Positions 2 to 40,278 of a DNA stretch of 64,000 nt are shown here, piece after piece; the first letter of the stretch is position 1, and every line of letters starts with the position of its first letter. The translations under genes were made by a program, and so were the position numbers. Below the pieces are notes generated by a model that saw only the letters and a program-made list of their open reading frames with translations, ran no database searches and was not told the DNA's origin. This stretch comes from Acrocarpospora corrugata (GTDB taxonomy: Bacteria > Actinomycetota > Actinomycetes > Streptosporangiales > Streptosporangiaceae), in assembly GCF_009687845.1 (NCBI RefSeq), contig NZ_BLAD01000069.1:1-64000 (forward strand), in the 5' to 3' direction.

Positions 2-259
2 GCCGATCAAGCGGTGCATATTACCGCGGCCTTCCAACTCGCCGGCTACCAACATGTCATTGGCACCCTGTGGCCCATCACCGACGCCACCGCCGCGCAA
101 ATAGCCGACGACTTCTACACTCGACTTACCGATGGCGGGAGGACACGGCCAAACACCGGACAAGCCGCCTATGCACTGCACCACGCCATCCAGGGAGTGC
201 GCACTGACTATCCAGCCCGCCCTTCCCTCTGGGCGGCGCACATCCATACAGGGCCATAA
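2..259 (+). CDS. CHAT domain protein, C-terminal end (partial)
   Basis: The reading frame is open from the left edge of the window, so only about 85 C-terminal residues are seen. They carry the end of a CHAT (caspase HetF-associated with TPRs) domain: the AFQLAGYQHVIGTLWPI motif that follows the catalytic cysteine, then the YALHHAI helix and the terminal WAAHIHTGP strand. The same motifs occur in the full-length CHAT protein at 9621-13244 (AFQFAGYRHVIATLWGI and WAPYVHLGP), so this is a second CHAT paralogue. It converges on the operon to its right, ending about 100 bases before that operon's last gene. The catalytic His and Cys lie outside the window, so activity cannot be judged. Confidence 0.85.
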   Translation, partial: ADQAVHITAAFQLAGYQHVIGTLWPITDATAAQIADDFYTRLTDGGRTRPNTGQAAYALHHAIQGVRTDYPARPSLWAAHIHTGP

Positions 260-361: not shown

Positions 362-1219
362 TCATGCAGGGAGCACCGCCCGTACCCGGAAGCCGTCGCC
401 GGTCGGGCCCGCTTCGAAGGTGCCGCGCTCGGCCTCGGCCCGGGCCCGCATGTCGCCCAGCCCGCGCCCGGGGACCGGCTCGGAGAATCGTCCCTCGTTG
501 GTGACGTCGATGGTGACCACGCTGTCGCTCCGGCTCACAATCACTGTGATGCGACCTTCGGCGGTGTGCCGCAGGGCGTTGGTGACCGCCTCGTGGATGA
601 TGCGGTAGCGGTTGGTCGTCAGCGCGATGTCGGTGGTGTCCAGCCGCAGGTCGCGACCGGTGGCGTGGACTCGGCCGGCCAGCGTGGCCAGCTCGGCGGC
701 CGGGTCCAGGACGCGCGGCAGACGGTCGGGGTCGGCATCAGGCGAGGTTACGAGACCTTTGCCGTCGGCTTCGGACGTCCTGTTCGCGAACATGTTCCAG
801 CTCCGGGAGACCAACGCCAAAGGCGCTCGAAGGCGGGCGGACCGCTTCTTCATGGCCGCTTCACGGTCATCTAGCGCCGCGAGGCACCTAGTGGCTTCTG
901 GATGTTCCTTTTCCGTCCGGATCGCGCGTTCCCAAACGTCGCGCGCGCTCGCGAACGACCTGTTCTGGGCGTGGATCTTCCCCAGTACGACCATGGCGTC
1001 GGCGCAGCCTGAATCGATTGCCATGACCTGCTGCAAGGCAAACGCGGCCGCTTTGGTGTCCCCTGACCTCGCCAGTCGGAGGCCCTCATTGTAGTACAGG
1101 ATGGCCCGCTGGCGAAGATAGGCGAGAATGGCCAGGTCCTGATCGCAGCCGGGGCAAAGGGTCGACGGCGCGGTCACTGTGATACGGCAGAGCGGACACG
1201 AGACCTCGAAATCACTCAT
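362..1219 (-). CDS. Zinc ribbon-TPR-GHKL (HATPase) fusion protein
   Basis: Soluble protein of about 285 residues and last gene of the CHAT/Hsp70 operon. Residues 6-25 hold a zinc ribbon (CPLC...CPGC), residues about 30-115 are TPR-like helices, and the C-terminal 120 residues are a histidine-kinase-type ATPase fold with an N box (HEAVTNALRHT) and a G2 box (GRGLGDMRARAEAERG), closest in style to NarL-associated kinases. I see no phospho-accepting dimerisation helix, no membrane segment and no response regulator next door, and the G1 box is weak (VTNEGR). It may therefore be an ATP-binding regulator or GHKL ATPase, not a true kinase. The ATG at 1219 is chosen because it follows the Hsp70 stop by one base and starts the zinc ribbon; a longer upstream frame exists but runs inside Hsp70. 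Confidence 0.75.
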   Translation of the reverse strand: MSDFEVSCPLCRITVTAPSTLCPGCDQDLAILAYLRQRAILYYNEGLRLARSGDTKAAAFALQQVMAIDSGCADAMVVLGKIHAQNRSFASARDVWERAIRTEKEHPEATRCLAALDDREAAMKKRSARLRAPLALVSRSWNMFANRTSEADGKGLVTSPDADPDRLPRVLDPAAELATLAGRVHATGRDLRLDTTDIALTTNRYRIIHEAVTNALRHTAEGRITVIVSRSDSVVTIDVTNEGRFSEPVPGRGLGDMRARAEAERGTFEAGPTGDGFRVRAVLPA

Positions 1220-1220
1220 T

Positions 1221-3770
1221 TTACGCGCCCCCCGACTCCAGCTTGGTCGGCATCTTGGAGGAGAAGTCAAGCCCTTGAACTTCTTCCCGGATCTCAGCCC
1301 ACAGCGTGAGCAGGATCCCCAACGCTGCGCGGACGTCGTCGTCCGCACCGGCGTCAAGCTTCTGGTCCACTTCTCGCAGCGCGCCCTGAACGCGATGCGT
1401 GAGCGCCGGTGTGAGCTGCCCCTGGCGCGCGAGAGTGCGGCAGAAGACGAGGATACGGACGACTTCGCCGAATCCGTCGATCAACGCATCCGCGCTGGCT
1501 GCGCTGGCCTTCGCGGACGTCCAGTCGGCTCGCTCTCGCGCCACGCCCAGTTCTTCGCTGTAGCGGGCCAGTTTGACGATGTTCTCCTGGCCGATGTACT
1601 TTCCTGCGCCGTTGATGACCGCAGTGATGAATGCGTCGGAACCTCGGATCTCCGACACCGTGCCCACCAGCTGCTCGGCCTCGGTGACCAGCATGTCCAC
1701 CGATTTCGGGCCTGGTCCCTTGATGAGTACCTGGTCGAGATCGTCGAGCAACCGGTAGAACACCTGGGACTCGGCCTCGGTCAGTTCCTGCGCCCAGCGG
1801 TCGACGAAGGCGGTGACCTTCTGGCGATGCGCCTCGATACGCTGCTGGTGCTCGGGATCCAATCGCCCGAAGTGCTGCAGTTCCACGACCTTTGTTTCCG
1901 CGCCCGCGACGCGCACCTTCACGGCTATGGTCAGGATGCGATCCGCCGACAGGCCGAAGGATACGTTGACCGGTGTGGCTCTGGGTAAGCCTTCCGGCAG
2001 CGGCAGTGTCACGTAGCCGCACAGCTGGTTCCGCTGCGCGGTGTCGTGCGGGCCTTCATAAACCGGGATCTCCAGTCGGCGCTGCCCGGTCACAGCGGTT
2101 GAGAAGTCACGCCTGTTGGGTTCAAGCGTGGGGCATGGCGTGTTCTTGGGGATGATGACGGCCATTCGCCCGTCGTTGAGTTCGATGCCCAGGTTCTGCG
2201 GGGTCACCTCGGTCGGCGGGGCGACGGAGAAGTCCTCATGGCAGGTGCCGCACGACACGGCTCCTTGCAGGTTCCTGGCCCCGCATTTGTCACATTTCAA
2301 GCCGCCTTCGTCGATGAGGATCTCGTTGCAGATCGAGCAGGACGTCGCGTTGGCCTGGTTGGCCTTGCCGCAGCGTGGGCAGGCCTGGAGCGCCCCCGCT
2401 TCAGTGGCCCGCACCGCCGGGGCCTCTGGTGCCGCGCTGGGGGATACCGCGCCCGCATCGCCGGCGGAGGAGAGTTCGTGACCGCATTTCCAGCAGGCTG
2501 TCTCGCCGTTGTCGGACAGCAGATGGCACGCCGGGCAGGCGATCTTCTCGTGGCCATCGAGCGCGGTCGCGCAGTTGGCGCAGCGCAGTGACTCCACCGG
2601 GTTCCGGATACCGCAGGCAGGGCAGTCGACCTCGCCGATGAGCGCCGCCTGGACCGCAGCGCCGAGACCGACGCACTGCATGGGGTTGACGTCCTTGCGG
2701 ATGCTGTCGGGTCCGAACATCTCGGTGAGTAGCCGCTCGACCAGCGGGATCGCGGTGGATCCGCCCACCAGCAGCACATGATCGATGTCGGCCACCGTGA
2801 GATCGGCCTCCTGGATGGCCTTGCGGGTCAGCTCCAGGGTCCGGTCGATGTGCGGCCGGATCATCTCCTCGAATTTCTCGCGGGACACCTCGGGGTTGAA
2901 ATTGACCAGGTCCTTGCCGATCACGGGCACGTTGATCTCGGCCGTCAGCTGGCTGGACAGAGTTATCTTGAGCTCCTCCGCGCTCGCCCGAATTCGTTCC
3001 ATCCCCTGGTGGTCCCCGGTCAGATCGGCACCGTGCTCCGTGCGCAGAATCTGGAGAAGGTGCCCGGCCAGGAGCCGGTCGAAGTCGTCGCCGCCCAGGA
3101 GGTTGTCGCCTTCAACGCCCAGGACGGTGAACGCGCCCTCCATGAGCAGCAGGATCGAGATGTCGAATGTTCCCCCACCCAGGTCGTACACGAGAATGGT
3201 CCGGCCATCGTTTCGATGCTCGCGGACGAGGCCGTAGGCGAGAGAGGCGGCCGTCGGCTCGTTGATGATCCGGAGCACCTGGAATCCGGCCAGCCGCCCG
3301 GCTTCCCGGGTCGCCGCCACCTGGCGCTCACCGAAGTACGCCGGAACAGTGATCACTGCCCTGGTGAACCGTTCCCGGCATCGATCCTCGGCGTCCTCCC
3401 GCAGCCGCCGGAGGACGAGCGCGGAGATCTCGATCGGTGTGTAGGCGCGCCCCCCGAACCAGACGTTGACATCCCCGTCCTGCCCCGCCGTCACCTGGTA
3501 GGGAATTCCTCGAAGGACCGCCTGGACCTCGGGGTCGGCGAACTTCCTGCCCATGAAACGTTTGATCGAATAGATGACGTTCGCGGGATCGGCCACGGAC
3601 CTGCCCCGCGCGGACGCGCCGACCAGAAGTTCGCCCCTTTTGCCACGCCCCACTACAGTTGGCGTGGAATCGCCGCTCTGCCGGTTGATCACGATTTGCG
3701 GCTCTCCGCGCCGCATGTAGGCCATGACCGAGTTGGTAGTGCCTAAATCGATGCCGAGCGTACGCTGCAC
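1221..3770 (-). CDS. Hsp70-family chaperone with four zinc ribbons between its domains
   Basis: DnaK-type ATPase of about 849 residues. The GTG start at 3770 gives the classical N-terminus (VQRTLGIDLGTTNSVMAYM) and sits one base after the stop of the GrpE-like gene; the longer frame upstream is non-homologous. Nucleotide-binding motifs are phosphate-1 (DLGTTNS), phosphate-2 (YDLGGGTFDISIL) and adenosine (LLVGGSTAIPLVERLL). Between the ATPase domain (to about residue 375) and a beta-type substrate-binding domain (starting about 515, PQNLGIELNDG) lie eight CxxC knuckles (CPAC, CANC, CPAC, CWKC, CPRC, CSIC, CDKC, CGTC), that is four zinc ribbons in place of the usual short hydrophobic linker. 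It lies in an operon with GrpE-like and J-like partners, so it is probably a dedicated chaperone for this locus and not the housekeeping DnaK. Confidence 0.9.
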   Translation of the reverse strand: MQRTLGIDLGTTNSVMAYMRRGEPQIVINRQSGDSTPTVVGRGKRGELLVGASARGRSVADPANVIYSIKRFMGRKFADPEVQAVLRGIPYQVTAGQDGDVNVWFGGRAYTPIEISALVLRRLREDAEDRCRERFTRAVITVPAYFGERQVAATREAGRLAGFQVLRIINEPTAASLAYGLVREHRNDGRTILVYDLGGGTFDISILLLMEGAFTVLGVEGDNLLGGDDFDRLLAGHLLQILRTEHGADLTGDHQGMERIRASAEELKITLSSQLTAEINVPVIGKDLVNFNPEVSREKFEEMIRPHIDRTLELTRKAIQEADLTVADIDHVLLVGGSTAIPLVERLLTEMFGPDSIRKDVNPMQCVGLGAAVQAALIGEVDCPACGIRNPVESLRCANCATALDGHEKIACPACHLLSDNGETACWKCGHELSSAGDAGAVSPSAAPEAPAVRATEAGALQACPRCGKANQANATSCSICNEILIDEGGLKCDKCGARNLQGAVSCGTCHEDFSVAPPTEVTPQNLGIELNDGRMAVIIPKNTPCPTLEPNRRDFSTAVTGQRRLEIPVYEGPHDTAQRNQLCGYVTLPLPEGLPRATPVNVSFGLSADRILTIAVKVRVAGAETKVVELQHFGRLDPEHQQRIEAHRQKVTAFVDRWAQELTEAESQVFYRLLDDLDQVLIKGPGPKSVDMLVTEAEQLVGTVSEIRGSDAFITAVINGAGKYIGQENIVKLARYSEELGVARERADWTSAKASAASADALIDGFGEVVRILVFCRTLARQGQLTPALTHRVQGALREVDQKLDAGADDDVRAALGILLTLWAEIREEVQGLDFSSKMPTKLESGGA

Positions 3771-3771
3771 G

Positions 3772-4296
3772 TCAGTCTCCGATCTCGTCTGGTTCGGTTT
3801 CACTGGTCGGATGGCGGACAACGACGACGTGGGCTCGTCGCAAGACATCTGATCTCCACATGAAACCCTCGACCGGCTGCTCGAAGACCGTCTCATCGGG
3901 CAGATGGACATGGTCCACGTAGCCAACGATGTCGGCCAGGTCCGGAGCTGGGGACATGCCGGCGAGGCGCATGGGCGTCACGCTCGCACGGGCCAGTTTT
4001 TGCAGCAGCAGACGCCGTGTGGCGGCCACCCCGTCGCTGAGCAGCTTGAGCAGCTCTGGGGATGACGCGCCTTCGACCGTACGCCGGTGGATCCGGTCGA
4101 GCGCGTCGCTGACCTCGAGCATGCCGAGAAGGAGCTCTCGCTGGGCCACATCCGCCCGTCTCCGCTCCCCCTGGAGGCTGTTTTCCAGCATCCCGCACCT
4201 GATCAAGAGCTTGGAGAAGGAATCGATCGGATCGACGCCGGATATTTCATCCGGCACTTGGATCTCCTGCTCGGTGATGGCGAAGGCTCGTTTCAT
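3772..4296 (-). CDS. GrpE-like nucleotide exchange factor
   Basis: Protein of 174 residues. The middle part (about 28-95) is a long charged helical region as in the GrpE dimer stalk, followed by a compact C-terminal domain with GYVDHV and HVVVVRHP strands in the position of the GrpE beta-wing. Similarity to GrpE is by layout and by position directly before the Hsp70 gene, so the assignment is moderately secure. The ATG at 4296 has a good GAGGAG ribosome site six bases upstream; the longer frame starting at 4326 is rejected. It presumably exchanges ADP on the neighbouring zinc-ribbon Hsp70. Confidence 0.65.
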   Translation of the reverse strand: MKRAFAITEQEIQVPDEISGVDPIDSFSKLLIRCGMLENSLQGERRRADVAQRELLLGMLEVSDALDRIHRRTVEGASSPELLKLLSDGVAATRRLLLQKLARASVTPMRLAGMSPAPDLADIVGYVDHVHLPDETVFEQPVEGFMWRSDVLRRAHVVVVRHPTSETEPDEIGD

Positions 4297-4309
4297 GAGT
4301 GCTCCTCGG

Positions 4310-4729
4310 CTACAGCGGCGGGTCAAGCGGTGGGAGAACGTCGAGGGTGACCTCGAAGCGCGGGCTCACCCGAAACGGAAGGGCCAGCGGCGGCGCCTCG
4401 AGCCAGTCCGCGCGGATCTGCTCCATCCGCAGTACGACCAGCGACGACATGGGGTATGGTGCCACCGGCTCGGCGGCCAGGAAACCGCCCTCGGGTAGAT
4501 CGGCCAGGGTTCGGCGCAGTTCGTCGACCACCTCGGCCGAATCGTGGGACAGCACGTCCGCCTCCAGCCGCCGACGCGGGTTGCGGAGCTCGTTGAACGC
4601 GTGGGTGAGGAGCTGCTGCGGGTGGCGCTTCTCGCGGGCCGCGCGCTGGTAGGCTCGTTTCACATCCCCGGCGGATGCCGATGCGGAGAGCCCCAGGATC
4701 TCGTAGGGCGATGAGTCGGGCAGGGGCAT
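4310..4729 (-). CDS. J-domain-like co-chaperone with HPQ in place of HPD
   Basis: Protein of 139 residues. Residues 8-60 follow the J-domain pattern: YEILGLSASAS (helix I), DVKRAYQRAAREKR (helix II), then HPQQ where the invariant HPD loop should be, then AFNELRNPRRR (helix III). The remaining 75 residues have no family I recognise. The start at 4729 (MPLPDSSPYEIL) places the J domain at the N-terminus, as in type III J proteins. It ends 13 bases before the GrpE-like gene. The loss of the HPD aspartate would normally abolish stimulation of Hsp70 ATPase, so it may act as a docking or regulatory J-like protein. Confidence 0.65.
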   Translation of the reverse strand: MPLPDSSPYEILGLSASASAGDVKRAYQRAAREKRHPQQLLTHAFNELRNPRRRLEADVLSHDSAEVVDELRRTLADLPEGGFLAAEPVAPYPMSSLVVLRMEQIRADWLEAPPLALPFRVSPRFEVTLDVLPPLDPPL

Positions 4730-4745
4730 TAGCGATCTCCCATCG

Positions 4746-7700
4746 TCATGGCATCCGGCCCAGAATCTGCCGGATCTGGGCATTGCCGGGATCGTGCCGC
4801 AGCGCCACTGTCAGGTCCTGTTTGGCCCCGTAGAAGTCACCGCGCTTACTTTTGTTCACCCCGCGCAGAGCCAGGCATTGCGCCAGCATCTTGCGCGTCG
4901 TGGCGGAGCCACTAAGCCCCAGCGCCTTTTCGAAGTGACCGATCGCCTCGTCGTAGCGGTCGCCATTGGTCAGCTGGACAGCATGGTTGTGATGGGCGGT
5001 GGCGAGTGCGCGGCGGGTGGGTGCGTCGTCGTCGTACCAGCGCGCCTCCTGGAACGATTTGATCGCCTTCGCTTGCTGGTCTTTCTTGGCGTGTTCCATG
5101 GCCTTGTTGAAGAGGATCAGCCCGATGCGCCGCTTGGCCTCGGCCTCGGTGGGCTCCGCGGTGGATTTCGGGTTGTGTTCGATCTCCTCGCGTATCAGCG
5201 CGATCGCCCGTGCACGATGGCCCGCGACCGCCTCAGCGCTCCCTCGCTTGACAAGAGCCGCGGCCAGGAGGAGCGCCGTGTCGTCGTCGGCCTCCCAGCG
5301 CAGCGCATCACGCAGCAATACGATGGCTTGATCCAGGTCCTCATCGGTTCCGGCTGAGAACAGTTGCATCCCGCGGTTGCCGGCCGCGACGCGCGCGAGG
5401 TGCCTGGTCTGGTCGTCGGTGGTGTACTTCAGCGCGATGCGCGCATGCTCCACCGCCTCCTTGAATTCGCTGTTGTTGTTGAGTTCCCTGGCGCGCCGCA
5501 CATACGTCGCCCCGAGATTGCTCCGTACGTCCGGGTGGTCCGGGGCCAGCCGAAGTCCTCTTTCCAGCACGGCGAGCGCCGCCGCGTAGTCACTGTCGAC
5601 GTTGGCGATCATCTTGGAATGCCGGACACTCGAGTCCGCGATCATGTCGACGTGTCCGGTGAGGTCGGCGCCCAATTCGCCGGCCCGTTCGGCGCACGAG
5701 AGCGCCTCCCCCCAGAGCTCGTCCTTGTGAAGCACGCCCGCCCTGGCGATCAAGGCTTCGATCAGCAACGGGCGGCCCGGCGGCCATGGGTCACGGTCCT
5801 CGAGTTCCTTGATCGCGTCATCCAGCCGGCGCTCGTCGATGAGATAGCGGTAGCGGCCGAGCGGCGACAACGCCGTTCTCAGTCGCTCACCCAACGGGTC
5901 GGCGAGCTTTTCCGCGACCGCCCCCAGGCTCTCGGCCATATCCTGGCCGAACGCTGTCTCGGCCAGCCGCTCAAGCAGCATCGGGCCGCAGGCGAACCCG
6001 GCCGGCCACTCGCGTGTGTGCCGCGCCGGAGCGCTTTCCGCGACCAACGCCGCGACACGCAGTTCCACTCCCCAGCGGATCTCAAGATCGCGGTAACGTG
6101 TGGCGCGTTCGACTGTGACACCCTCTGCCATAGCCCGGTCCCGCAGATCCTGAACAACGCGCTCGACCACTGCCTGGCGCACCGCCGCGACGGTCTCGTC
6201 GGTGTTCTCCCGGCCCGTCCGCGCGGCGAGTCCCATCCAGAAGGCCGGGCTGTGCAGGACCGCCGCCCAGCACGCGAGCAGCAGGTGCCATGCGTCGTCG
6301 GCGCTTTCCCTGGCGAGGACGTGGTGGTAGGCGGTAATGGCGATGCGCCGGATGAGCCGGAGGTCGGCCGGACGTCGCCGCCACTCCTCTCGCCAGATCG
6401 TCAGCGACTCCTCGTGGCGGCCGAGCCGCGCATCTTCCATCGCGCGCCAGTCCCGCAACAGCAAGCTCGCCCGCTGACCGTGGTCGGACGCCGGATCGAG
6501 CCGCAGGACCTCGGTGATGTCATCGGAGACCGCTTCCACATCGGGTTCGCGAACGCGGATCGCGGCACGATGTACATGCATCCGGGCTACCGCGCCGCGC
6601 AACGGCGCATCAAAGACCGGGAGGTTTCGCAGGGGTGTCAGTATGTGCAGCGCTCCGTCGAAATCTCCCTGTTCCGCCAGAATGAGGCCTAGATGGCGGG
6701 CGCTTCCCATGCCCGCGTTCCGGTGTTGCCTGGCCACCCATCCCTTCAGCGCGTCGGCCGCCGTGTCCAGCCTGCCGGTCTTGCCGGCCCAGCTGGCAAT
6801 CGCCGTGAACGAGGCGGTCAGGCAAGGGCCGCAGCGGGCGCAACCGTGATCATCGGTCATCCCATGGGTGGCGCAGAAAGCCCGACCGCACTGACCGCAG
6901 GACCGGGCCGAGACTTCCCCGCACTCCTGGGAGTGGCAGGCGAGCCGCGATGTCCCGGCCGTGGGGGCGTTGGCTTCGAGGGAGCGGCAGTACGCGCCCA
7001 GCGCCTGCGCCCACTGCCCTCGCCGGGCGGCCAGTTCGCCACGTGCGACGTGATACGCGGGCCCGATGACGGCGGCGTGAGTCTCCAGATCATCCAAGAG
7101 CGACCCGGCCTCCGTGGTCCAGCCAAGGGCCAACTGGGCGAGCGCGAGATGATATTTCGCCCGCTGCCGAAGCGCCTCTCCCGGCAGCGGCGACAGCAAG
7201 GCGGACACGGCGTCGGCGGCACCGTCGAGAAGGGCCGCCACCGCCAGGTAGTGCCCGGGCCTGTTGTCCCCGGCGCCCAGCTCCCGTGCGCGGGCCAGCG
7301 CGCCGCGATGGCCGCCACTTGTCCGGTGCGCGCAGAGCTGGACAGTTCCATCCCGCAGGCATGCCTCGACCAGGGCGATCCGGAATGTCTCCCGATCCGG
7401 ATCCATCGAATGGCACAGTTCCCAGTAGCGACGAGCCGAGCCGTAGGCTCCCGCTTCCAGATCGGCGCGCGCCTGCAGATCCCACGCTGCCACCAGGTTT
7501 CCACGCAGAACGGCATCCCGTTCGCCGCCCGAAGCGTTGGCGTGGAGCCGTGCCCACAGGGAGACGGCGGTGGCCATGTCGCCGAGACGAGCGTGTCCCA
7601 AAGCGCAGTGGAAGCGAGCACTGTCCCAGGAGCCCGCGTGCGGTCGAGCATCGGCGTCGCCGGATTCCCGGGCAAGCACCGTCTTCAGGGTGCCCACCCC

Positions 7701-9503
7701 TTGTTCAAGGGCGCCGGCCGCGACCTGCGCCGCCCCCAGCCGGACCCACCCCGGCACCCAGTCACCGCATTGGTCTAGCCCGGCGGCGTACTGCTCGGCC
7801 GCGCCATGCGGATCCGCGGCGCGCTCTGACAGCAGACCGAGCCCGAATCTGGCCGGAGCGAAGGACGGGTCCAGCGCCGCCGCGCGAGCGAACGCCGCCG
7901 CCGCGCCTTTCCAGTCCTGTATGCCGGCGACCAGCACTCCCAGCGCGTACTGCGCACGCGGATCGTCCGGCGCCAGGGTCACGGCCCGGCCGAGATCGGC
8001 GGCGGCACCCATGATGTCCCCAAGCCGTTGCCGCGCCTGGCCACGGAAGAGCGCGATCTCGCTCCAACGCTCCTGGCGGGTGCGCCCCTGATCCGTGCCC
8101 GTGGCCTCCGCCTGGTCGAACGCGTCGACCGCTCCCGCCCAGTCGGCAAGCCGGGATCGCACAGAGCCGAGACAGAACGCCGCGTCGGGATGATCGCCCT
8201 TGCCGAGGCAGCGTTCGAAATCGCTCGCGGCCCGCTCCAGATAGCCGGCACGTCCCTCGGCGAGGCCGAGAAAGTAGAGGTCGGCGCCGGTGGGCTGGGC
8301 GATGGCGGACAGGACCGCGATCGCCTCCGGGTAGCGGTGCTGCTGGTACAGGCTCTGCCCCAGCCCGGATCGGGCCGTGATGTCGTCAGGGTCGAGCTGC
8401 AGCACCCCACGGCTGAACGTCTCGGCCTGGCCCCAGTCCTCCTCTTCCAGAAGCAGTTCCACCAGACGCCGATTCGCCGGCAGGTGCCGGGAGCCGGTGG
8501 TGGCCGCCCGTCGCAGGGAGCCGATGCCAGATGATCGTCGGCCGCGTTCGAGTTCGGCCAGGCCGCGGGTGTACCAGTAGTCAGCCCGCCCAGGTTGCAG
8601 TTCGCAGGCACGGGCCAGGCAGGCCAGCGCATCGTCGAGTTCGTCCAGCCGAGCCGCCGGTTCGCCGTCCCGCCCTCTGGCGAGGTGGATCTCGGCGAGT
8701 TCATACAGTACGGGTGCCTGGTCGGCATCGATCGCGAGCGAGCGTTCGAAGGCCGCGGCGGCGCGGTCGTCGGAACCTGCGGCTCTATATAGCAGCCCCA
8801 GGAAGTACGGTGTGGCCGCCCGTGCTGGGCCGAGTTGCTCGGCGCGAAGGAACGCGTCGATGGCGTCGCCCCTGCGGCCGAGGCCCCGCAGCGCGCAGCC
8901 CTGCGCGAACGCCGCCCATTCCAGGTGCGGCGCGACCCGCAGCACATTCGTGGCCAGGGACCGAACTGCCCGGAGTCCGGGGACGCTTATGTCCGGGGCC
9001 ACCTGGCAGCGCTTGCGCAGGAGATCGATCACGAGGTCGTCATCAGGAAGTCTCCCCGCGTACTCGAGGTGCTTGATGGCGATGTCGAGCCCGGTCGGCG
9101 ATGAGTCCGCCCGCGCGGCGACATCGGCCGCGAGCAGCGCGACCGGTTCAGGCGGCAATGTGATCAGCGGAAATGCGTCGCGATATGCCACGCGGGCGTC
9201 CGGCAATTTGCCTTGCCGGACGGCGATGTCGCCAATCGCCAACAGCGCCTGGCCACGCATTTCCCGTAGTTCTTTGGACGGGGCGCGCAGGAACTTTATC
9301 TTTGACGCGATCTTGGTGAAGAGGCGGTTGGCTCTGGCCAGCCTGTCACGCTCACGTAACTGGTTGCCACGCTCGATGAGCCGAGCGTACACAGCCGGAT
9401 CACTGGTGCGCCGGTTGTCGCTCACCGCCAGGATGACCCCGAAGATGACAACCGTCACAACGACCAGGGTCGCCGTGGCCAATACCAACGTCACCGTGCT
9501 CAT
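4746..9503 (-). CDS. Giant membrane-anchored TPR protein
   Basis: Very long protein of 1585 residues. Residues 1-28 form one hydrophobic segment (VTLVLATATLVVVTVVIFG) followed by NRR, predicting an N-in membrane anchor with a large cytoplasmic or single-face domain, or a signal anchor. The rest is almost entirely tetratricopeptide-type helical repeats (for example YFLGLLYRAAGSDDRAAAAF). Near residues 855-900 is a cysteine/histidine cluster (CHSQEC, CGQC, CATH, CARCGPC) suggesting a zinc-binding module within the repeats. It starts with ATGA overlap on the 35-aa ORF and precedes the J-like gene by 16 bases. The likely role is a scaffold that gathers the CHAT protease and chaperones at the membrane; this is inferred from repeats and context. 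Confidence 0.8.
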   Translation of the reverse strand: MSTVTLVLATATLVVVTVVIFGVILAVSDNRRTSDPAVYARLIERGNQLRERDRLARANRLFTKIASKIKFLRAPSKELREMRGQALLAIGDIAVRQGKLPDARVAYRDAFPLITLPPEPVALLAADVAARADSSPTGLDIAIKHLEYAGRLPDDDLVIDLLRKRCQVAPDISVPGLRAVRSLATNVLRVAPHLEWAAFAQGCALRGLGRRGDAIDAFLRAEQLGPARAATPYFLGLLYRAAGSDDRAAAAFERSLAIDADQAPVLYELAEIHLARGRDGEPAARLDELDDALACLARACELQPGRADYWYTRGLAELERGRRSSGIGSLRRAATTGSRHLPANRRLVELLLEEEDWGQAETFSRGVLQLDPDDITARSGLGQSLYQQHRYPEAIAVLSAIAQPTGADLYFLGLAEGRAGYLERAASDFERCLGKGDHPDAAFCLGSVRSRLADWAGAVDAFDQAEATGTDQGRTRQERWSEIALFRGQARQRLGDIMGAAADLGRAVTLAPDDPRAQYALGVLVAGIQDWKGAAAAFARAAALDPSFAPARFGLGLLSERAADPHGAAEQYAAGLDQCGDWVPGWVRLGAAQVAAGALEQGVGTLKTVLARESGDADARPHAGSWDSARFHCALGHARLGDMATAVSLWARLHANASGGERDAVLRGNLVAAWDLQARADLEAGAYGSARRYWELCHSMDPDRETFRIALVEACLRDGTVQLCAHRTSGGHRGALARARELGAGDNRPGHYLAVAALLDGAADAVSALLSPLPGEALRQRAKYHLALAQLALGWTTEAGSLLDDLETHAAVIGPAYHVARGELAARRGQWAQALGAYCRSLEANAPTAGTSRLACHSQECGEVSARSCGQCGRAFCATHGMTDDHGCARCGPCLTASFTAIASWAGKTGRLDTAADALKGWVARQHRNAGMGSARHLGLILAEQGDFDGALHILTPLRNLPVFDAPLRGAVARMHVHRAAIRVREPDVEAVSDDITEVLRLDPASDHGQRASLLLRDWRAMEDARLGRHEESLTIWREEWRRRPADLRLIRRIAITAYHHVLARESADDAWHLLLACWAAVLHSPAFWMGLAARTGRENTDETVAAVRQAVVERVVQDLRDRAMAEGVTVERATRYRDLEIRWGVELRVAALVAESAPARHTREWPAGFACGPMLLERLAETAFGQDMAESLGAVAEKLADPLGERLRTALSPLGRYRYLIDERRLDDAIKELEDRDPWPPGRPLLIEALIARAGVLHKDELWGEALSCAERAGELGADLTGHVDMIADSSVRHSKMIANVDSDYAAALAVLERGLRLAPDHPDVRSNLGATYVRRARELNNNSEFKEAVEHARIALKYTTDDQTRHLARVAAGNRGMQLFSAGTDEDLDQAIVLLRDALRWEADDDTALLLAAALVKRGSAEAVAGHRARAIALIREEIEHNPKSTAEPTEAEAKRRIGLILFNKAMEHAKKDQQAKAIKSFQEARWYDDDAPTRRALATAHHNHAVQLTNGDRYDEAIGHFEKALGLSGSATTRKMLAQCLALRGVNKSKRGDFYGAKQDLTVALRHDPGNAQIRQILGRMP

Positions 9504-9607
9504 CGCCGACCGTCCCCGAACTCATACCTGCCGGGGAATTCCGCGGGCGACGTCCAATATCGCTCCCGGCGGATGCGCGCGAGTTGCTCCGGAGTGAACT
9601 CGGACAT
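9500..9607 (-). CDS. 35-residue ORF coupled to the giant TPR gene
   Basis: Very short ORF between the CHAT gene (stop 13 bases upstream) and the giant TPR gene, whose ATG overlaps its stop (ATGA). The peptide begins MSEFTPEQLARIRRERYW and ends GRYEFGDGRR; it is charged, has no membrane segment and no family I know. The FTPEQLARIRRERYW stretch could form one amphipathic helix. A purine-rich GAGAG lies about 6 bases before the ATG. It may be a real micro-protein or only a translational coupling leader. Confidence 0.4.
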   Translation of the reverse strand: MSEFTPEQLARIRRERYWTSPAEFPGRYEFGDGRR

Positions 9608-9620
9608 GATCGTCTCTCGC

Positions 9621-12600
9621 TCAGGGACCGAGGTGGACATAGGGGGCCCACACGTGCGGGTGACTGGGATACCTCTCGCGGAGTCTGGCGATGGCACCGT
9701 GGAGCGCTTCCGCGGCGTGCGCGGATGGGACGTCCGCGTTGGGGGAGAGCTTCTCGTACACCCAGTCGGTCACCTTGGGCGCAAAATAGTCGCTGATCCC
9801 CCAAAGGGTCGCTATGACGTGTCGATATCCGGCGAATTGGAATGCCGACGCGAGATGGATGGCCTCGTCTGGGAGACCGGGATCTCCGGTGAACGTCTCG
9901 CATGCGGAGAGATACGCCAGGTCCGCGCGGGCGAGACGGAGTTCGGCGATCTCCGAGATCGAGAGCGGGCCGTCGTGCAGCATGATGTGCCCGGAGCCTG
10001 GGTCGCTGCTGTCCTGGCTGCCGTGACAGGCGAAATGCACCCAATCGTAGGAGCCCAGTGCCTGGGGTACGTCCGCCCGGGTGGCCTTCTCCTGCAGCAT
10101 GGTGCTGACGGTCATGTGCTTGTGGGCCAGGTGCCGCTTGATGTGGTCGAGTTCCTCGCCGACCGACGGTAGGGGGGGTTGCCCGGGCGTTTCGGGGATG
10201 CCGACCACCAAAGCCCGCTCGGCCCGGTGCTCTGGCTTTGCCTCTGATGGGACCAGCGCGCCGAGGGTGGTCGTGTAGGACGAGATCAGGTGCGGGGGGA
10301 CCGCCGCGTGGAGGGGGAGCAGCGCGAGCTTTCCCGTCGGGCACCACCAGATGCGCGGGCTCTCAGACTCCAGTCGATCGAGCACCGGGTTCACTACGGT
10401 TTCGCGCAGCCAGTCTGTGATCTCCGTGAGGATCTTGTCCATGGCGCGCGTCGGGGTGTCCTGGTCGGGGTCCAGGGCGGTGAGCATGGCACGGGCTCGT
10501 TCGCCCACCTCATCGTGCGCGAGTCTCGGCAATGGCACCGCTCGCACCTTCAGCCGGTCGATCAGGAGCGCGTCGCAGCCGTAGGCGCTGACGTTCACGA
10601 TCACGACCGGACCGTTCACGGACGCCCCGCGCAGTTCCTCGAACGGGGCCGGGCGAAGGAAGTTCGCGAAGCCTTCCAGCTGGCGTGCCATGGCCACCAG
10701 GCGGTCCCACTCCTCGGCGAGCCTGCGCGCCCGCTCCTGGTCGCCAACCGTGAATGCGGTGCCGGCGGTCAATTCGGGGAAGGCACGGGGGGCGTCGAGC
10801 GCGTTCCGTACGCGGTCGAGTTCGCCGGCCAGGTCGCGGTCGCGCTCGGCAAGCCGGGTCAGGTCGGTCCGGATGTGCAGCTTCTGCGCCCAGAGAATGG
10901 AACGACCCTGTTCGAGGAGTTCCACCGCGAGTTCGGGCCGTTGGTCGCGGATCGCCCAGACCGCCGCGTCGCTCGCGAGCCCGCTCCACATCCCGAGTAG
11001 TCTCTCCTGGGCCGATCGGTGGAGGCCGCGCCAGGCCACGATGGGCAGCAGCGCCACGGCGGCCTGGTAGCCCTCAGCGGCGAGGTGCGGGTCGTTCTGA
11101 GCCGCCGCGAGTTCGCCCCATTTGATGGCGGAGGCGATGCGTGCCGGCGCGGAGCCGGCCGCGGATGTGGCGGCCTCCCGCCACACGGTGAAGGCTTCCC
11201 GGAGATCCGCGCGGTTCTGGGTGCTGCGGAATCGTGCTTCGAGTGCGCTGCCCAGATTGGATAGATGAGGTGCCATGTTCTGATGACCTGACGGGGTCAG
11301 CTCGACCGCCGCACGACCGTCGCGGACCGCGTCGTCCAGATCCCCCGGCCAGCCGCGCCTCCTGAGTACGAGCCCGAGGTTGTTCAGAAAACCGGCTCTG
11401 TCCGGATGCGTGGCGGGGGTGGCCTTCAGGGCCGCGCGAAGTGCCGTTATCGCCTCGGTGATGTCGGACTCGTGGTGAACGGGATCCGGATTCGGGCCTG
11501 ACGACAGCACGAAGATCTGTGTCTGCAGCATCACTGCGAGGCTGCCTAGGCACAGTGCTCGGGTTGGATGCTGCTCGTCCGTACAGGAGACCGCCCGCCT
11601 CGCGACGGTGACCGAGTCGGCGATGTCCGTCAGCATCTCGTTGCGGGTCCTCGCGCCCCGGGATCCCCTGCTCTGCAAGGCGACGCTCAGGTTCAGCAGG
11701 CGTCCCGCGAGCTGGGGATGGTTCTCCGGCACGAGTGCGACGGTCTCCCGGCCGATTCGGATCGCCTCGTCGATGTCGTCCAGCTCATGGACGTGCTCGA
11801 AACGCAGCATGAGGCTGCCGACCAGATTGCTGCGAATCAGCGCCTTCGATTCCGGATCTGCTTCCAGGGCGTCCGCCTGGCGACAGAGCTGCACGGACTC
11901 GTCCAGCTGGGTGAGTTCAGTGGTGCGCTGGTAACTCAGTCTCAGGGTCAGCGCGAGGCTCGCGAGGAATTTCGATCGTCCGGGGTGGGCCGTGTGTTCG
12001 CCGGCGATCGACGCTCTGCCGTACCGGATCGCCTCCTCGAGATCGGCGAGGTCGTCGCGCAGGCCGAAACGATGCTGAAGCGCGACCCCGAGGTGGGCCA
12101 TGGCGACCGCACGATCGCTGTTACCCGGTGGGATGACGCGGACGGCGGCCCGGCCCGCGGTCACGGCCTCGTCGGCCGCGTCGAGGTCCTTGCGGTCTTC
12201 GGCGTACGTCGCGAGCGCACCGCAGAGGTTGCTGAGCATGACGGCGCGGGCGCCGGTTTGCGCGCAGTCGGCGACGTCGAGTCCGCGCCGCAACAGGGCG
12301 ATCGCGTGTTCGAGGGAACCGTGATCTCCGGTCCGCTCGAAGCGAATCGAATGCTCCACGGCCGTGACGTTGAGCGTCATCAGGTCGACGTCGTCGTCCC
12401 GGGGATTCGGCAACGCGGAGAACGGCGGTGGCAGCATCCCGGGGTTGATCCGGTTGATGACGCCCATCCATGTCGTCACCTGCTGGTGGTCCCAGGCGTC
12501 CTCGCCTTCCGGGAGCCTGCGGTAGCGGTGCATGTGGAAGGTGGCCAGGAGCATCGCCGCCGGTAGGTCGCAGCTGTACCGCCCGCCTACCAGTTCGGCC

Positions 12601-13244
12601 AGTTTCTCGGCCTCCCGCCGGGCATCCGCTTCGAGAATCACCTGCGAGCCCCGCCATGCGGCCGTTTCGTGGCGGGTGGCGAGCGTTTCCATCAGCGCGT
12701 GGCGTTCCAGGTCCTCGTCGTGGCCCGTGTCCTGATGAGCCGAGACTGCCGCGAAGCTCGCGAGCAGGACGGCATGGATGTCGTGCCACGTTCCGCCGAG
12801 TAACGCCACCTGGGCCAGTTCGATCAGTCCGGAGTAGGTGGCCGGGGCGTTTCCCGTGAGAGCTCGGGCGGCCGCGGTGTCCGGCTCGCCCAGGACGCAC
12901 AGCGCCAGCGCGCCGGTCGGCGCCGGGACCATCTCGGCCTCTGTCGCAAGCGCCACCGCGGCTTTGATGGCCCTCGTACAGGTCCGGGTCACCGGTGCGC
13001 CGGCCCACAGGCCCGCGGCGGATGGGTCGGGGTCGGGAATATCGGCGGCCACGACGGTGTCGATGCCCCCGAAGTCCAAGGCGAGCCGCTCCCACTCCCC
13101 GGCGGTGTCCACCCGCATCAGCGCGATCAGGACGTCCCGCGTGTCCATGGGCAGACCGGGATCACGTCGTCGCGCCGCCTCGTCTAGCGCGTCCTGCGCC
13201 TTCATCGTGAAGGCGGGCCTCAGGCGGTCGAGGTTCTCACTCAC
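9621..13244 (-). CDS. TPR-CHAT caspase-like protease (CATRA-type)
   Basis: Protein of 1207 residues starting with GTG three bases after the upstream gene. The first 60 residues (AFTMKAQDALDEAARRRD) resemble a Clp-N type helical repeat. The centre (about 280-780) consists of TPR-like repeats typical of actinobacterial CHAT proteins (for example HPDRAGFLNNLGLVLRRRG). The C-terminal 300 residues are a CHAT peptidase: the expected catalytic His is in WVHFACHG (H1074) and the nucleophile in YLSACET (C1115), followed by AFQFAGYRHVIATLWGI. Both residues are present, so the protease looks active. Proteins of this build next to a CATRA-associated small protein are regarded as effectors of NTP-dependent conflict systems. 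The substrate is unknown; the membrane TPR protein and Hsp70 in the same operon are candidates for partners. Confidence 0.88.
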   Translation of the reverse strand: MSENLDRLRPAFTMKAQDALDEAARRRDPGLPMDTRDVLIALMRVDTAGEWERLALDFGGIDTVVAADIPDPDPSAAGLWAGAPVTRTCTRAIKAAVALATEAEMVPAPTGALALCVLGEPDTAAARALTGNAPATYSGLIELAQVALLGGTWHDIHAVLLASFAAVSAHQDTGHDEDLERHALMETLATRHETAAWRGSQVILEADARREAEKLAELVGGRYSCDLPAAMLLATFHMHRYRRLPEGEDAWDHQQVTTWMGVINRINPGMLPPPFSALPNPRDDDVDLMTLNVTAVEHSIRFERTGDHGSLEHAIALLRRGLDVADCAQTGARAVMLSNLCGALATYAEDRKDLDAADEAVTAGRAAVRVIPPGNSDRAVAMAHLGVALQHRFGLRDDLADLEEAIRYGRASIAGEHTAHPGRSKFLASLALTLRLSYQRTTELTQLDESVQLCRQADALEADPESKALIRSNLVGSLMLRFEHVHELDDIDEAIRIGRETVALVPENHPQLAGRLLNLSVALQSRGSRGARTRNEMLTDIADSVTVARRAVSCTDEQHPTRALCLGSLAVMLQTQIFVLSSGPNPDPVHHESDITEAITALRAALKATPATHPDRAGFLNNLGLVLRRRGWPGDLDDAVRDGRAAVELTPSGHQNMAPHLSNLGSALEARFRSTQNRADLREAFTVWREAATSAAGSAPARIASAIKWGELAAAQNDPHLAAEGYQAAVALLPIVAWRGLHRSAQERLLGMWSGLASDAAVWAIRDQRPELAVELLEQGRSILWAQKLHIRTDLTRLAERDRDLAGELDRVRNALDAPRAFPELTAGTAFTVGDQERARRLAEEWDRLVAMARQLEGFANFLRPAPFEELRGASVNGPVVIVNVSAYGCDALLIDRLKVRAVPLPRLAHDEVGERARAMLTALDPDQDTPTRAMDKILTEITDWLRETVVNPVLDRLESESPRIWWCPTGKLALLPLHAAVPPHLISSYTTTLGALVPSEAKPEHRAERALVVGIPETPGQPPLPSVGEELDHIKRHLAHKHMTVSTMLQEKATRADVPQALGSYDWVHFACHGSQDSSDPGSGHIMLHDGPLSISEIAELRLARADLAYLSACETFTGDPGLPDEAIHLASAFQFAGYRHVIATLWGISDYFAPKVTDWVYEKLSPNADVPSAHAAEALHGAIARLRERYPSHPHVWAPYVHLGP

Positions 13245-13247
13245 GGG

Positions 13248-13535
13248 CTACCGGCCTTCCAGTTCGGCGAAGGCGCGGCCGACGCCGACCTCCCGGCAGC
13301 GGCGCAGCAGCCCCAGGTGCTCCCGCAGCAGCGGGTCCCGCTTGGCCTGGGACAAGCCCGGATAGACCATGGCGGTGGTCTGCGGATCCTGGATCATGAT
13401 CGCGAGCATGTCCGACGCGGCGGAGTAGAGCAGCTCCGGGTGCTCGTCGAGGATGCGACGTGAATCGTTCCACGACCTTGCGCGCAGGAAGGACACGAGG
13501 TTCCGCAGCATCTCGGCAGCCTTGTCTTGGGCCAA
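13248..13535 (-). CDS. Small helical protein of CHAT loci
   Basis: Protein of 95 residues, all helical, with the segment SFLRARSWNDSRRILDEHPELL and the C-terminal LRRCREVGVGRAFAELEG. That last motif recurs as an N-terminal or spacer module of TPR-CHAT proteins in actinobacteria, so I take this as a separately encoded adaptor of the CHAT effector that starts three bases downstream. No catalytic motif is visible. Confidence 0.6.
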   Translation of the reverse strand: MAQDKAAEMLRNLVSFLRARSWNDSRRILDEHPELLYSAASDMLAIMIQDPQTTAMVYPGLSQAKRDPLLREHLGLLRRCREVGVGRAFAELEGR

Positions 13536-13544
13536 TGTCAGCTC

Positions 13545-13742
13545 CTAAGGGGTGTGACCCGTTGAGACCACGGCGCGGGGCATGGGGGCGAAGCCCCCGG
13601 CGAAGGCCGGGATGGCGACGGCCCATGTCAGCACCGGAGCGGCCGGGAGGCCGGAGAGACCTTCAGCCACCAGGGTGATGATCAGCCAGGCGGTGGCCGC
13701 GCTGAGTAGTCCGGCCGATATCGCGCGGCTCTCAGCTGTCAT
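13545..13742 (-). CDS. Small two-helix membrane protein
   Basis: Protein of 65 residues starting MTAESRAIS; a GAGGAG ribosome site lies seven bases before the ATG at 13742, which overlaps the end of the preceding gene by 11 bases. Two hydrophobic segments, GLLSAATAWLIITLVAEG and AAPVLTWAVAIPAFAGGF, predict a hairpin in the membrane with both ends on the same side. I do not recognise a family. In context it may be the membrane partner of the CHAT system, perhaps a target or pore. Confidence 0.55.
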   Translation of the reverse strand: MTAESRAISAGLLSAATAWLIITLVAEGLSGLPAAPVLTWAVAIPAFAGGFAPMPRAVVSTGHTP

Positions 13743-14064
13743 CACGCTCTCCTCGCGCCGCCTCCAGCTCATCGCCGCTCAACCAGCTCCGCAACGTATT
13801 GATGCGATCCCGAACGGGTGCGGGCGCCCTTTCCGGCAATTCAAGCGGATTTGTCCGGACCTGACGGCGAGGCGTCAGCAACATCAGCCTGGTCGTCGCC
13901 GCCGAGAGCCGCACCATTGGGCCGGCAGCGCACGATTCGATCATTTCGTCCAGGCAGCGTTCCACGTCATTCCATCCCGCTGGGAAAAGCCGCCAATTCA
14001 GGACCGCGTCGAGAACGGCCGACACTTCCACCCGCAGCTCGGCCGTTACGATGTTGTCACTCAT
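13732..14064 (-). CDS. CATRA system-associated small protein
   Basis: Protein of 110 residues, first gene of the operon. It matches from memory the family named CATRA system-associated protein: a short N-terminal helix (VEVSAVLDAVLNWRL), then GWNDVERCLDEMI, a polar middle, and the characteristic ending PAPVRDRINTLRSWL. ATG at 14064 is preferred over the longer frame because GGGGAG precedes it by about ten bases and the family begins here. These proteins accompany TPR-CHAT effectors in actinobacterial conflict systems; their molecular role is not known. Confidence 0.7.
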   Translation of the reverse strand: MSDNIVTAELRVEVSAVLDAVLNWRLFPAGWNDVERCLDEMIESCAAGPMVRLSAATTRLMLLTPRRQVRTNPLELPERAPAPVRDRINTLRSWLSGDELEAARGERDDS

Positions 14065-14083
14065 AGTCGGCGCTCCCCGCGCT

Positions 14084-14205
14084 AGGATCGCGTTTCGTAC
14101 ATATCCGTATTCGCCGCGATGAACTTCATCGTCGAGTAGACACGCGATCCTGCTTCCGCCAACAGAGATTTTCCGCAACCCCGTTGCTTCCACGCTGCTT
14201 CCGCC
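14084..14205. promoter_or_regulatory. Divergent regulatory region with inverted and direct repeats
   Basis: Gap between the ten-gene operon (ATG 14064, leftward) and the SARP-macro regulator (GTG 14234, rightward). It holds a perfect 10-bp inverted repeat, AGGATCGCGT at 14084-14093 and ACGCGATCCT at 14142-14151, and the heptamer TGCTTCC three times on the plus strand (14151, 14185, 14196). The last two copies are exactly 11 bases apart, the usual spacing of SARP binding boxes, and the copies at 14151 and 14196 share ten bases (TGCTTCCGCC). I infer regulator binding here; no clear -10/-35 pair can be fixed. Confidence 0.5.
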
Positions 14206-14233
14206 GGGGCCCGGGTTGCGCTCAGGAGGTGAC

Positions 14234-15559
14234 GTGAGTCGGCCCTACGTGAGACTGCTCGGCCCAGCTCGCGTCGAGATCGGCGGTGCGGAAACCCTGC
14301 TCCGGCCGATCACGGCCGCGGTGCTCGCCCGGCTGATCATCGCGGAGAACGAACCGGTCACCGTGCACGAGATCTCCCATGACGTCTGGGGTCGGATTGG
14401 CACGATCCAACGCGAAGACCGGACTAGCGTCCAGAAGCGCATCCTCGAACTGCGGCGGATACTTGACCCGCACGGCCCGGGCGAGAGCTCCCAGGTACTG
14501 CGCACGGAGCGGGGACGGGTCTCTGCGTACCGGCTTGCCCTGCAGCGCGATCAGGTCGATCTCCTGCAGTTCCAGGATCTGACTCTGAGAGCCCACCAGG
14601 CCGTGCCCGCTTCCGCGGTCAAGTTGCTCACTCAGGCGCTGGGACTGTGGCGCGGCCGTCCCCTGGGCGACGTCGATGACCGTCCGTTCGCGGCCCAGAT
14701 CGTACGTAGGCTGACCGACTATCATCATGCGGCCCGGCGGACGCTGATGTACGCGTACTCGGACCTGGAGCTGCCCGACCGGGCGTTGAAGGTCGGGGAA
14801 GGGCTGCTGCGTGATCTCCCCGACGACCAGGAGTTGGTCAGCTTCCTCGCGGAACTCCGGCGGCAGTTGCGCACCAAATTCGGCGGCGAGGTGTTCCGGC
14901 AGGACTTCGCCGATCTGAGCACCTCTCTGGTCGTTTCTCGCGGCGACCTGTTCGCGCAGGACGACGCCCATCTGGTGGTCGGCTTCACCGACACCTTCGA
15001 CACCGCCACCGATCAGGATCTGGTTATCAGCGAGCACAGTGTGCAGGGCCAACTGCTGCGGCGAATTTACGGAGGCGACCGCGCGAAACTCGACCGTGAG
15101 TTGAAAGCGGCGCTGCGCAGCGTCACACCCGCGGCCGCCGAGAGCCGATCGGTCAAGCGGCACGGGAGACTGATCCGGTATCCCGTGGGAACGGTGGTCG
15201 CCCTCCGCCATTCGGGGCGTCGCGTCTTCGCGCTCGCGTACAGTCGGATGGGCAACAACCTCGTGGCCGAGTCGAGCATGGAGCATCTTCGGCTCAGCCT
15301 GGAACGTCTCTGGGACGCCGTCTATCTCCACGGGCAGCGGAAGCCGGTGGCGCTGCCCTTGCTCGGTGCCGGTCTGGCGCGAATCGACGTAGGCCGGGAA
15401 GAGCTTCTTTCGGTCATCCTGAATTCCTTCCTGACCCGATCACGCGTCCAATTCGTTTGCCCGGAACTGCGTGTCGTCATTCTGCCCGCGGAACTCGGCA
15501 AGGTCGACATATTGTTCCTCGGCAAACTGGCGGGCGAGCTGGATTCCGGGATCGGATAA
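14234..15559 (+). CDS. SARP/BTAD transcription regulator fused to a ThsA-like macro domain
   Basis: Protein of 441 residues. GTG at 14234 is chosen because AGGAGG lies four bases upstream; a TTG further up is not needed. Residues 1-95 form an OmpR-type winged helix of SARP regulators (LLGPARVEIGG, HEISHDVWG, VQKRILELRRILD), residues about 95-225 a bacterial transcriptional activation domain (LQFQDLTLRAHQAV, LWRGRPLGDV). The C-terminal 195 residues are not a usual SARP partner: VVGFTDTFDTATDQDLVISEHSVQG and LPLLGAGLARIDV match the macro-type domain of Thoeris ThsA, which binds NAD-derived cyclic ADP-ribose signals. It diverges from the CHAT/Hsp70 operon and is the obvious candidate controller. 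Confidence 0.8.
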   Translation: MSRPYVRLLGPARVEIGGAETLLRPITAAVLARLIIAENEPVTVHEISHDVWGRIGTIQREDRTSVQKRILELRRILDPHGPGESSQVLRTERGRVSAYRLALQRDQVDLLQFQDLTLRAHQAVPASAVKLLTQALGLWRGRPLGDVDDRPFAAQIVRRLTDYHHAARRTLMYAYSDLELPDRALKVGEGLLRDLPDDQELVSFLAELRRQLRTKFGGEVFRQDFADLSTSLVVSRGDLFAQDDAHLVVGFTDTFDTATDQDLVISEHSVQGQLLRRIYGGDRAKLDRELKAALRSVTPAAAESRSVKRHGRLIRYPVGTVVALRHSGRRVFALAYSRMGNNLVAESSMEHLRLSLERLWDAVYLHGQRKPVALPLLGAGLARIDVGREELLSVILNSFLTRSRVQFVCPELRVVILPAELGKVDILFLGKLAGELDSGIG

Positions 15560-28193: not shown

Positions 28194-28200
28194 CGGCGGT

Positions 28201-28413
28201 TCACGGAAGTTTCAGGGCGTCGTCGGGCGCGGAGCGGGTGCCGTTGGGCGGGACGTCGGTGGTGAGCTCCTCAAGGACCTGAATGGCGCCGCTGATCCGC
28301 AGCAGCGTTTCGCGCACGGTCCCCTCTTCGCGGATCAGCTCGCGGAGGCGTTCTTCGCCGATGGCGAACTCTCGGCGCAGGTCGGTGAGGCGGGCGGCGA
28401 TCTGGTCATGCAT
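28201..28413 (-). CDS. Small coiled-coil protein of the injection system
   Basis: Protein of 70 residues whose first 50 form one charged helix (LTDLRREFAIGEERLRELIR then TLLRISGAIQVLEEL), followed by a short flexible tail. It overlaps the fibre gene by eight bases and ends seven bases before the toxin gene, so it is probably a cargo chaperone or loading factor. I know similar small helical proteins at this place in actinobacterial clusters but no assigned function. Confidence 0.65.
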   Translation of the reverse strand: MHDQIAARLTDLRREFAIGEERLRELIREEGTVRETLLRISGAIQVLEELTTDVPPNGTRSAPDDALKLP

Positions 28414-30406: not shown

Positions 30407-30414
30407 CGGGGCTC

Positions 30415-37258: not shown

Positions 37259-37259
37259 C

Positions 37260-39116: not shown

Positions 39117-39121
39117 GGCTC

Positions 39122-40261: not shown

Positions 40262-40278
40262 GGTCTGCTCCTTAGCGC

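Follow-up and report, generated by a model that had tools for sequence, protein, structure and literature searches.

A rare variant of CATRA-type caspase conflict systems with an Hsp70 arm and a candidate SARP–macro operator

CATRA (caspase/TPR-associated) systems are named conflict systems, and their original paper is reportedly that of Burroughs and Aravind from 2020. SARP regulators mostly govern development-linked genes, and their target promoters carry direct repeats with an 11-bp period. TIR-linked ADPR compounds are ligands of ThsA macro domains, and both macro and caspase-like effectors have been described for TIR signals; in the accessible parts of these reports, the signals act on the effector proteins directly (PMC11204291, PMC12847820). 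Dedicated chaperones also appear in conflict settings. According to the available portions of the sources, Hsp70 units occur in McrBC systems (PMC11090510), roughly 14% of GAP1-N2 neighbourhoods include HSP70 and GrpE genes (Kaur et al. 2020, PMC7159879), and bNACHT25 offers a precedent for DnaJ/DnaK-dependent sensing (PMC12169576).

Here we analyse a locus of Acrocarpospora corrugata that a sequence-only reading had put forward as a candidate undescribed system. The exact combination of its parts was indeed not found described: a literature search, mostly of freely readable journals, returned no account of CATRA/CATASP together with Hsp70–CHAT and SARP–macro–TIR. Judged from its genes, the locus is genuine and belongs with the CATRA/caspase conflict systems as a rare variant, one that carries a candidate operator for SARP–macro.

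Operon and contig edge

The window, meaning the whole stretch of DNA analysed, is the first 64 kb (64,000 nucleotides) of contig C69 from a draft genome of 9.27 Mb, and starts at the contig edge. Ten genes run along its minus strand from 14064 to 362, every reading frame open, with successive gaps or overlaps of −11, 9, 3, 13, −4, 16, 13, 1 and 1 bases. The tight packing noticed earlier, together with a divergent SARP–macro gene, is therefore real, the largest gap being 16 bases.

The operon opens with CATASP, a CATRA-associated small protein of 110 aa (13732..14064; PF20271, E 3e-13, over the cut-off). It had been called a CATRA-type protein, and it is a conflict-system part but not CATRA itself. 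The names CATRA-N/C, CATASP and TPR-CHAT follow Pfam and NCBI annotation. The hydrophobic 65-aa product of the second gene (13545..13742) has no Pfam match, and only a single stretch of it exceeds the hydropathy threshold, so the description as a two-TM protein is not borne out. The third gene encodes a 95-aa protein (13248..13535) related to the N-termini of TPR-CHAT proteins: it matches residues 8–70 and 18–88 of two TPR-CHAT paralogues at 39% (BLASTP). Next comes the 1207-aa TPR-CHAT caspase-like protein (9621..13244). Its assignment as a caspase-like CHAT protein is upheld by PF12770 (E 7e-45), and the His1073 and Cys1113 motifs of the presumed catalytic dyad are present. The following 35-aa ORF (9500..9607) shares motifs with the start of a 188-aa protein that adjoins TPR-CHAT at locus L069 (3099–3665), and may be a truncated component.

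The sixth product, of 1585 aa (4746..9503), had been presented as a membrane TPR scaffold. Pfam confirms the TPRs, and the membrane part comes down to one N-terminal TM-like stretch by hydropathy; there is also a weak mid-protein zinc-finger match. A search of genome contigs with the scaffold as query found no relatives. The three chaperone genes that follow are considered below. The last gene (362..1219), read earlier as a GHKL ATPase, proved to be a 285-aa ORF with a zinc ribbon and TPRs and only a partial HATPase_c match, covering positions 7–49 of the 111-position profile and slightly under the Pfam cut-off. Matches to its final 160 aa occur at 33 further sites of this genome, within open frames 185–704 aa long, and a short stretch 3′ of the stop codon resembles, by eye, the start of a response regulator. 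Pfam and these genome-wide matches indicate that the ORF probably ends in a fused two-component remnant, its histidine-kinase tail being debris.

The contig edge cuts through a further gene. The first 256 bases of the window encode the C-terminal end of a second TPR-CHAT protein (2..256, plus strand), whose front is apparently on contig C124. That contig terminates within a CHAT gene at the residue matching the start of C69, and the two ends share 8 bases with the frame kept. Past its CHAT gene, C124 carries CATASP, a CATRA–TIR gene and another SARP–macro gene, 53% identical to the first. The matching ends and these genes indicate that a CATRA system probably lies opposite the window operon beyond the assembly break, the other half of the locus apparently being on C124.

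Elsewhere in the window, positions 26193–42761 hold a contractile injection (phage-tail-like) cluster with Baseplate_J, gp25, T4 gp19 tube and AAA ATPase genes and a non-specific DNA/RNA endonuclease. Sheath and tube genes also occur at another SARP–macro locus (L063, 15473–17841).

SARP–macro regulator and predicted operator

The divergent gene (14216..15559, plus strand) has its likely start at GTG 14234, preceded by AGGAGG. It encodes, as first read, a SARP-type regulator fused to a ThsA-like macro domain (Pfam BTAD, E 4e-9; ThsA_Macro, E 6e-57), with Trans_reg_C below the cut-off. PDB matches were to ThsA (9uuz, 8r66, 8v6q) and to EmbR (2fez). The winged helix and BTAD of a SARP are both found, judged from the BTAD score over its cut-off and the EmbR match. 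Pocket residues were compared with EcThsA (8v6q), using residue numbers derived from the chain alignment, in which all six letters agree with the published ones. The window protein retains two of the six, D83 and D100. The N114 position is Q in 14/14 aligned family proteins, the T220 position is A or S, and S217 is kept in 12 of 14, the exceptions being the window and L068 proteins, which have A. The macro ligand is likely of the ADPR type; since only two pocket residues are kept, it may differ from that of EcThsA.

The 169-base divergent region contains GGAAGC-N5-GGAAGC. This predicted SARP operator (14152..14202, minus strand) comprises an exact direct repeat at 14202–14186 and an off-register half-site at 14157–14152. 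The repeats have the format of SARP operators, with an 11-bp period. Exact pairs occur at 7/13 SARP–macro loci, counting the related loci L063/L064 and L065/L066 separately, versus 0/22 CHAT or Hsp70 loci without SARP–macro (Fisher p 3e-4, relatedness ignored); with one of each related duo dropped, the contrast is 5/11 versus 0/20. By base composition, this repeated hexamer was expected 0.045 times and seen 8 times, the greatest over-representation among those tested. When all hexamers were compared at periods 7–30, GCTTCC at 11 ranked first by composition and third by control contrast. One hexamer ahead of it in the latter, CGACAC at period 9, was set aside because its source is probably the part of the macro gene that encodes DTFDT.

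Across the window's genome there are three exact pairs in total and no triple; the other two pairs (C48, C67) lie away from known conflict genes. No exact pair was present in the stretch examined at 6/13 SARP–macro loci, including that of the second copy in this genome. The triple form (≤1 mismatch) occurs once each in 6/11 SARP–macro genomes versus 0/30 controls, of which 24 are recorded as having no SARP–macro match and the other six came from the family draw, individually unlisted. All six triple sites sit at SARP–macro or CATRA loci. A reversed triple pattern, used as a chance control, also gave 6 occurrences, in 4/41 genomes, three of them without SARP–macro. Because this control is equally frequent, the strength of the triple result lies in its placement, not its count.

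GGAAGC reads toward an effector operon at nine of ten pair sites (those at SARP–macro loci and at L111), the site in genome G986 being the exception. SARP–macro genome G172 has another pair upstream of a GTPase gene, and at L086 one operator precedes TM–GrpE-like–Hsp70–J-like–CHAT and a second precedes CATASP–CATRA. What is new here is the proposal of the GGAAGC direct repeats as a candidate SARP–macro operator, a predicted site that would link regulator to operon. GGAAGC repeats were also seen ahead of the E2-like/ThiF gene pairs at L063–L066, and L132 (2700–11430) has a perfect triple operator adjoining CATRA–TIR, followed by DUF4407 and a sub-threshold dynamin match.

Company of SARP–macro genes and the Hsp70 arm

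SARP–macro genes were found in 10/200 family genomes. A class-wide search at a looser cut-off gave 5/394 genomes, two with the macro part alone, and plasmids gave none at E 1e-30. Thirteen full copies from 11 genomes were examined. As the sequence-only reading held, CATASP and TPR-CHAT are conflict-system parts, and they keep regular company with SARP–macro: within the stretches examined, CATASP accompanied 11/13 copies, CATRA 9/13 (one of these on a second contig of G986), CHAT 8/13 and Hsp70 2. One locus (L067) is a 7.5-kb contig, where missing genes mean little. Two candidates from G986 were rejected: contigs C381 and C284 share sequence without joining cleanly into a contiguous locus, and an Hsp70-like BLAST match (65 aa, E 4e-4) has no Pfam support.

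The CATRA proteins at SARP–macro loci all carry a CAP12/PCTIR TIR domain (9/9, that on C124 included), versus 8/18 at CATASP loci with no SARP–macro in the stretch (p about 0.005, relatedness ignored). The remaining CATRA proteins of the latter group end in GT4-conflict, in phosphorylase or in nothing that Pfam names; in the CATRA fusions of L114 and L119, a domain of the GT4-conflict glycosyltransferase or phosphorylase-superfamily type takes the place of TIR. E2-like genes (below the Pfam cut-off) and ThiF/E1-like genes were found at L063, L064, L066 and L068, and at L065 by reading.

These partners bear on whether the locus serves defence at all. SARP regulators are usually tied to development genes, and the operon could instead be one of stress or development proteolysis, in which the cell's ADP-ribose/NAD status would be read by SARP–macro and differentiating cells would be remodelled by CHAT. 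We consider this improbable: conflict systems typically have partners such as CATRA–TIR, E1/E2-like and GTPase proteins, and a patchy spread like that seen in the family.

Genes at the retrieved loci were called with a script of our own, which gives approximate starts. From 31 CATASP matches, 11 fell in stretches already in the set, 19 were added as 18 stretches and one below the cut-off was dropped. The 19 CATASP loci with no SARP–macro in the stretch have CATRA at 18, CHAT at 16 and Hsp70 at 0; one of them, L109, carries a SARP-less macro gene. At six further TPR-CHAT loci from the window's genome and nine from plasmids (9/19 plasmid CHAT records were examined), neither Hsp70 (0/15) nor SARP–macro (0/15) was found, and two of the nine plasmid loci have CATRA and CATASP.

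The chaperone genes had been described as a complete Hsp70 set. The Hsp70 itself (849 aa; 1221..3770, minus strand, GTG start at 3770; HSP70, E 3e-135, with a double zinc ribbon) and the GrpE-like nucleotide exchange factor (174 aa; 3772..4296, minus strand; PF01025, E 5e-9) bear this out. The J-like member (139 aa; 4310..4729, minus strand) does not, with a DnaJ match below the Pfam cut-off (PF00226, E 9e-5) and HPQ where HPD would be expected. In the accessible text of one report, the DnaJ substitution D35N disrupted DnaK binding (PMC12169576); by analogy, the HPQ protein may bind without driving the chaperone cycle. The J-like protein of L061 likewise lacks HPD and has no Pfam match, and this J-like/TPR protein was absent from 297 genomes, a sample that contained no known positive.

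Alignment to DnaK places the Hsp70 nucleotide-binding domain (NBD) at residues 1–381 and the substrate-binding domain (SBD) from residue 521. The linker between them holds four zinc ribbons, and their 16 cysteines are all invariant in 7 aligned proteins. The NBD motifs appear intact by eye. An AlphaFold model was weak (pLDDT 64, pTM 0.40, 7 sequences), and no conclusion was drawn from it. A search with the C-terminus as query, scoring 2 to 5 candidates per genome, found no zinc-ribbon orthologue in 297 order and 396 phylum genomes. At E 1e-10 it matched 102/297 order genomes including this one, the others at ~30% identity and taken, with no individual inspection, as ordinary DnaK; in the phylum set, no other genome matched at 1e-14. 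A Synergistales candidate (L079) was discarded as a chance match. Zinc-ribbon Hsp70s were found elsewhere in one plasmid record and six genome contigs, all from Streptomyces (L039, L073–L078) and 36–39% identical to the window protein. HATPase, TPR, GrpE and Hsp70 genes are present at all seven of these stretches, with methylase at 6, McrB at 6, McrC at 5 and UvrD at 5. CHAT was found at 0/7, and CATASP and SARP–macro likewise were not found. Kinase-helicase and DpdE/DrmD-like SNF2 genes were seen at L039 only, several of the Streptomyces stretches ending too early. That two such unlike settings share an Hsp70 whose allosteric linker bears four zinc ribbons poses a separate question for chaperone biology.

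It is conceivable, if unlikely, that the arm has specialised in sensing or carrying nucleic acid or modified protein and recruits CHAT as its output. The invariant ribbon cysteines are consistent with this, as is the same Hsp70 type in methylase/McrBC islands. In the accessible parts of the CoCoNuT report, the authors propose RNA binding by defence Hsp70s; however, the NBD motifs described there are degenerate, and those of the window protein look intact (PMC11090510).

A second genome (83% complete, 1010 contigs) combines at L086 a ribbonless Hsp70, GrpE-like, J-like/TPR and TPR-CHAT proteins with SARP–macro, the GrpE-like and J-like/TPR proteins being read by eye, the former with no match to the Pfam GrpE profile and the latter with no Pfam match. 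The sequence-only reading would have taken co-occurrence in more than 10 genomes as support for one system. The Hsp70 set, CHAT and SARP–macro were seen together in 2 genomes, the seven Streptomyces loci have the zinc-ribbon Hsp70 without CHAT, and within the stretches examined Hsp70 is missing at 11/13 SARP–macro copies (one of the 11, on C124, adjoins the window). The parts are thus separable modules, an outcome that the sequence-only reading had itself named as counting against its proposal, and the claim of one system is not supported in its original form.

A possible though less likely explanation is that of two unrelated neighbours with no mechanistic link: a CATASP/TPR-CHAT unit controlled by SARP–macro and, independent of it, the kind of zinc-ribbon Hsp70 unit seen in Streptomyces McrBC islands. 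The order TPR – small ORF – GrpE – zinc-ribbon Hsp70 exists without CHAT in Streptomyces, and Hsp70 is missing from the 15 other CHAT and 19 other CATASP loci. Yet the ten genes are packed with gaps of at most 16 bases, and L086 places a different Hsp70, with GrpE-like and J-like proteins, beside TPR-CHAT behind the same operator. Two apparently separate Hsp70 recruitments argue for function, and the rarity of Hsp70 at such loci argues for an accessory role. The Hsp70 arm is best regarded as an accessory module, and the one-system claim rests on two genomes.

Proposed mechanism and known systems

The gene content, the company that SARP–macro keeps with CATASP, CATRA–TIR and CHAT, and the repeats with their placement are observations. 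The reading we favour, at a rough probability of 0.5 for the whole explanation, is a CATRA-type caspase system switched by SARP–macro in response to a TIR-made ADPR signal, with Hsp70 as threshold device. The locus would be a conflict system acting probably by abortive infection or programmed death, plausibly in phage defence. SARP–macro would bind the heptad repeats GGAAGC-N5-GGAAGC ahead of the CATASP gene, and binding of an ADP-ribose-derived signal by its macro domain would lead it to turn the operon on. The signal would most likely come from a TIR enzyme, for example the CATRA–TIR protein of the neighbouring half-locus. TPR-CHAT would be the main effector and active as a protease. The Hsp70/GrpE/J-like set and the TPR scaffold would form an accessory threshold device that attaches to the protease or to what it cleaves, and the load of unfolded or foreign protein would then determine when CHAT is free to cut.

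More tentatively, the several loci may belong to an inducible immune regulon, in which SARP–macro would read the TIR-made ADP-ribose signal and raise the GGAAGC-bound effector operons (TPR-CHAT, CATASP–CATRA–TIR, Hsp70–CHAT, E1/E2-like and GTPase) together, with the ribbon-bearing Hsp70 setting the protease threshold. We think this joint claim possible rather than probable. Such a regulon would resemble the animal nucleotide signals that lead to gene induction and, if real, would bring caspase-like, TIR, chaperone and ubiquitin-like modules under common control. Given a macro-domain transcription factor whose operator is defined, nucleotide-induced expression of bacterial immune genes could be put to a direct test.

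Several described systems resemble the locus in part. Thoeris shares the ThsA-type macro domain, its type II having a TM-macro ThsA, and sister loci carry TIR-bearing proteins; the protease output is like that of type IV, with TIR and a caspase-like protease. However, the window macro domain is fused to a DNA-binding SARP instead of TM helices, its pocket residues differ, and Pfam identified no ThsB/TIR among the ten operon genes, CATRA–TIR lying only across the contig break. The type III-E CRISPR Craspase also has a TPR-CHAT protease, but none of the ten window proteins matched gRAMP (Cas7-11) in Pfam. The Streptomyces methylase/McrBC islands, which invite comparison with McrBC/CoCoNuT superoperons, have the zinc-ribbon Hsp70, GrpE and TPR genes in identical order but differ in their want of CHAT, CATASP and SARP–macro. 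The GAP1-N2 GTPase systems are likewise conflict systems with a dedicated Hsp70/GrpE/J/TPR set; as presented in the accessible parts of their description, they are GTPase-centred, with FNIII proteins and no CHAT (PMC7159879).

CATRA conflict systems themselves are the closest comparison, given the CATASP gene adjoining a TPR-CHAT gene in the window. The window operon differs in having no CATRA-N/CATRA-C protein of its own, one with TIR lying across the contig break, and for this reason it is filed as a variant and not a plain member. It also differs in what it adds, the Hsp70/GrpE/J-like/TPR arm and the SARP–macro regulator.
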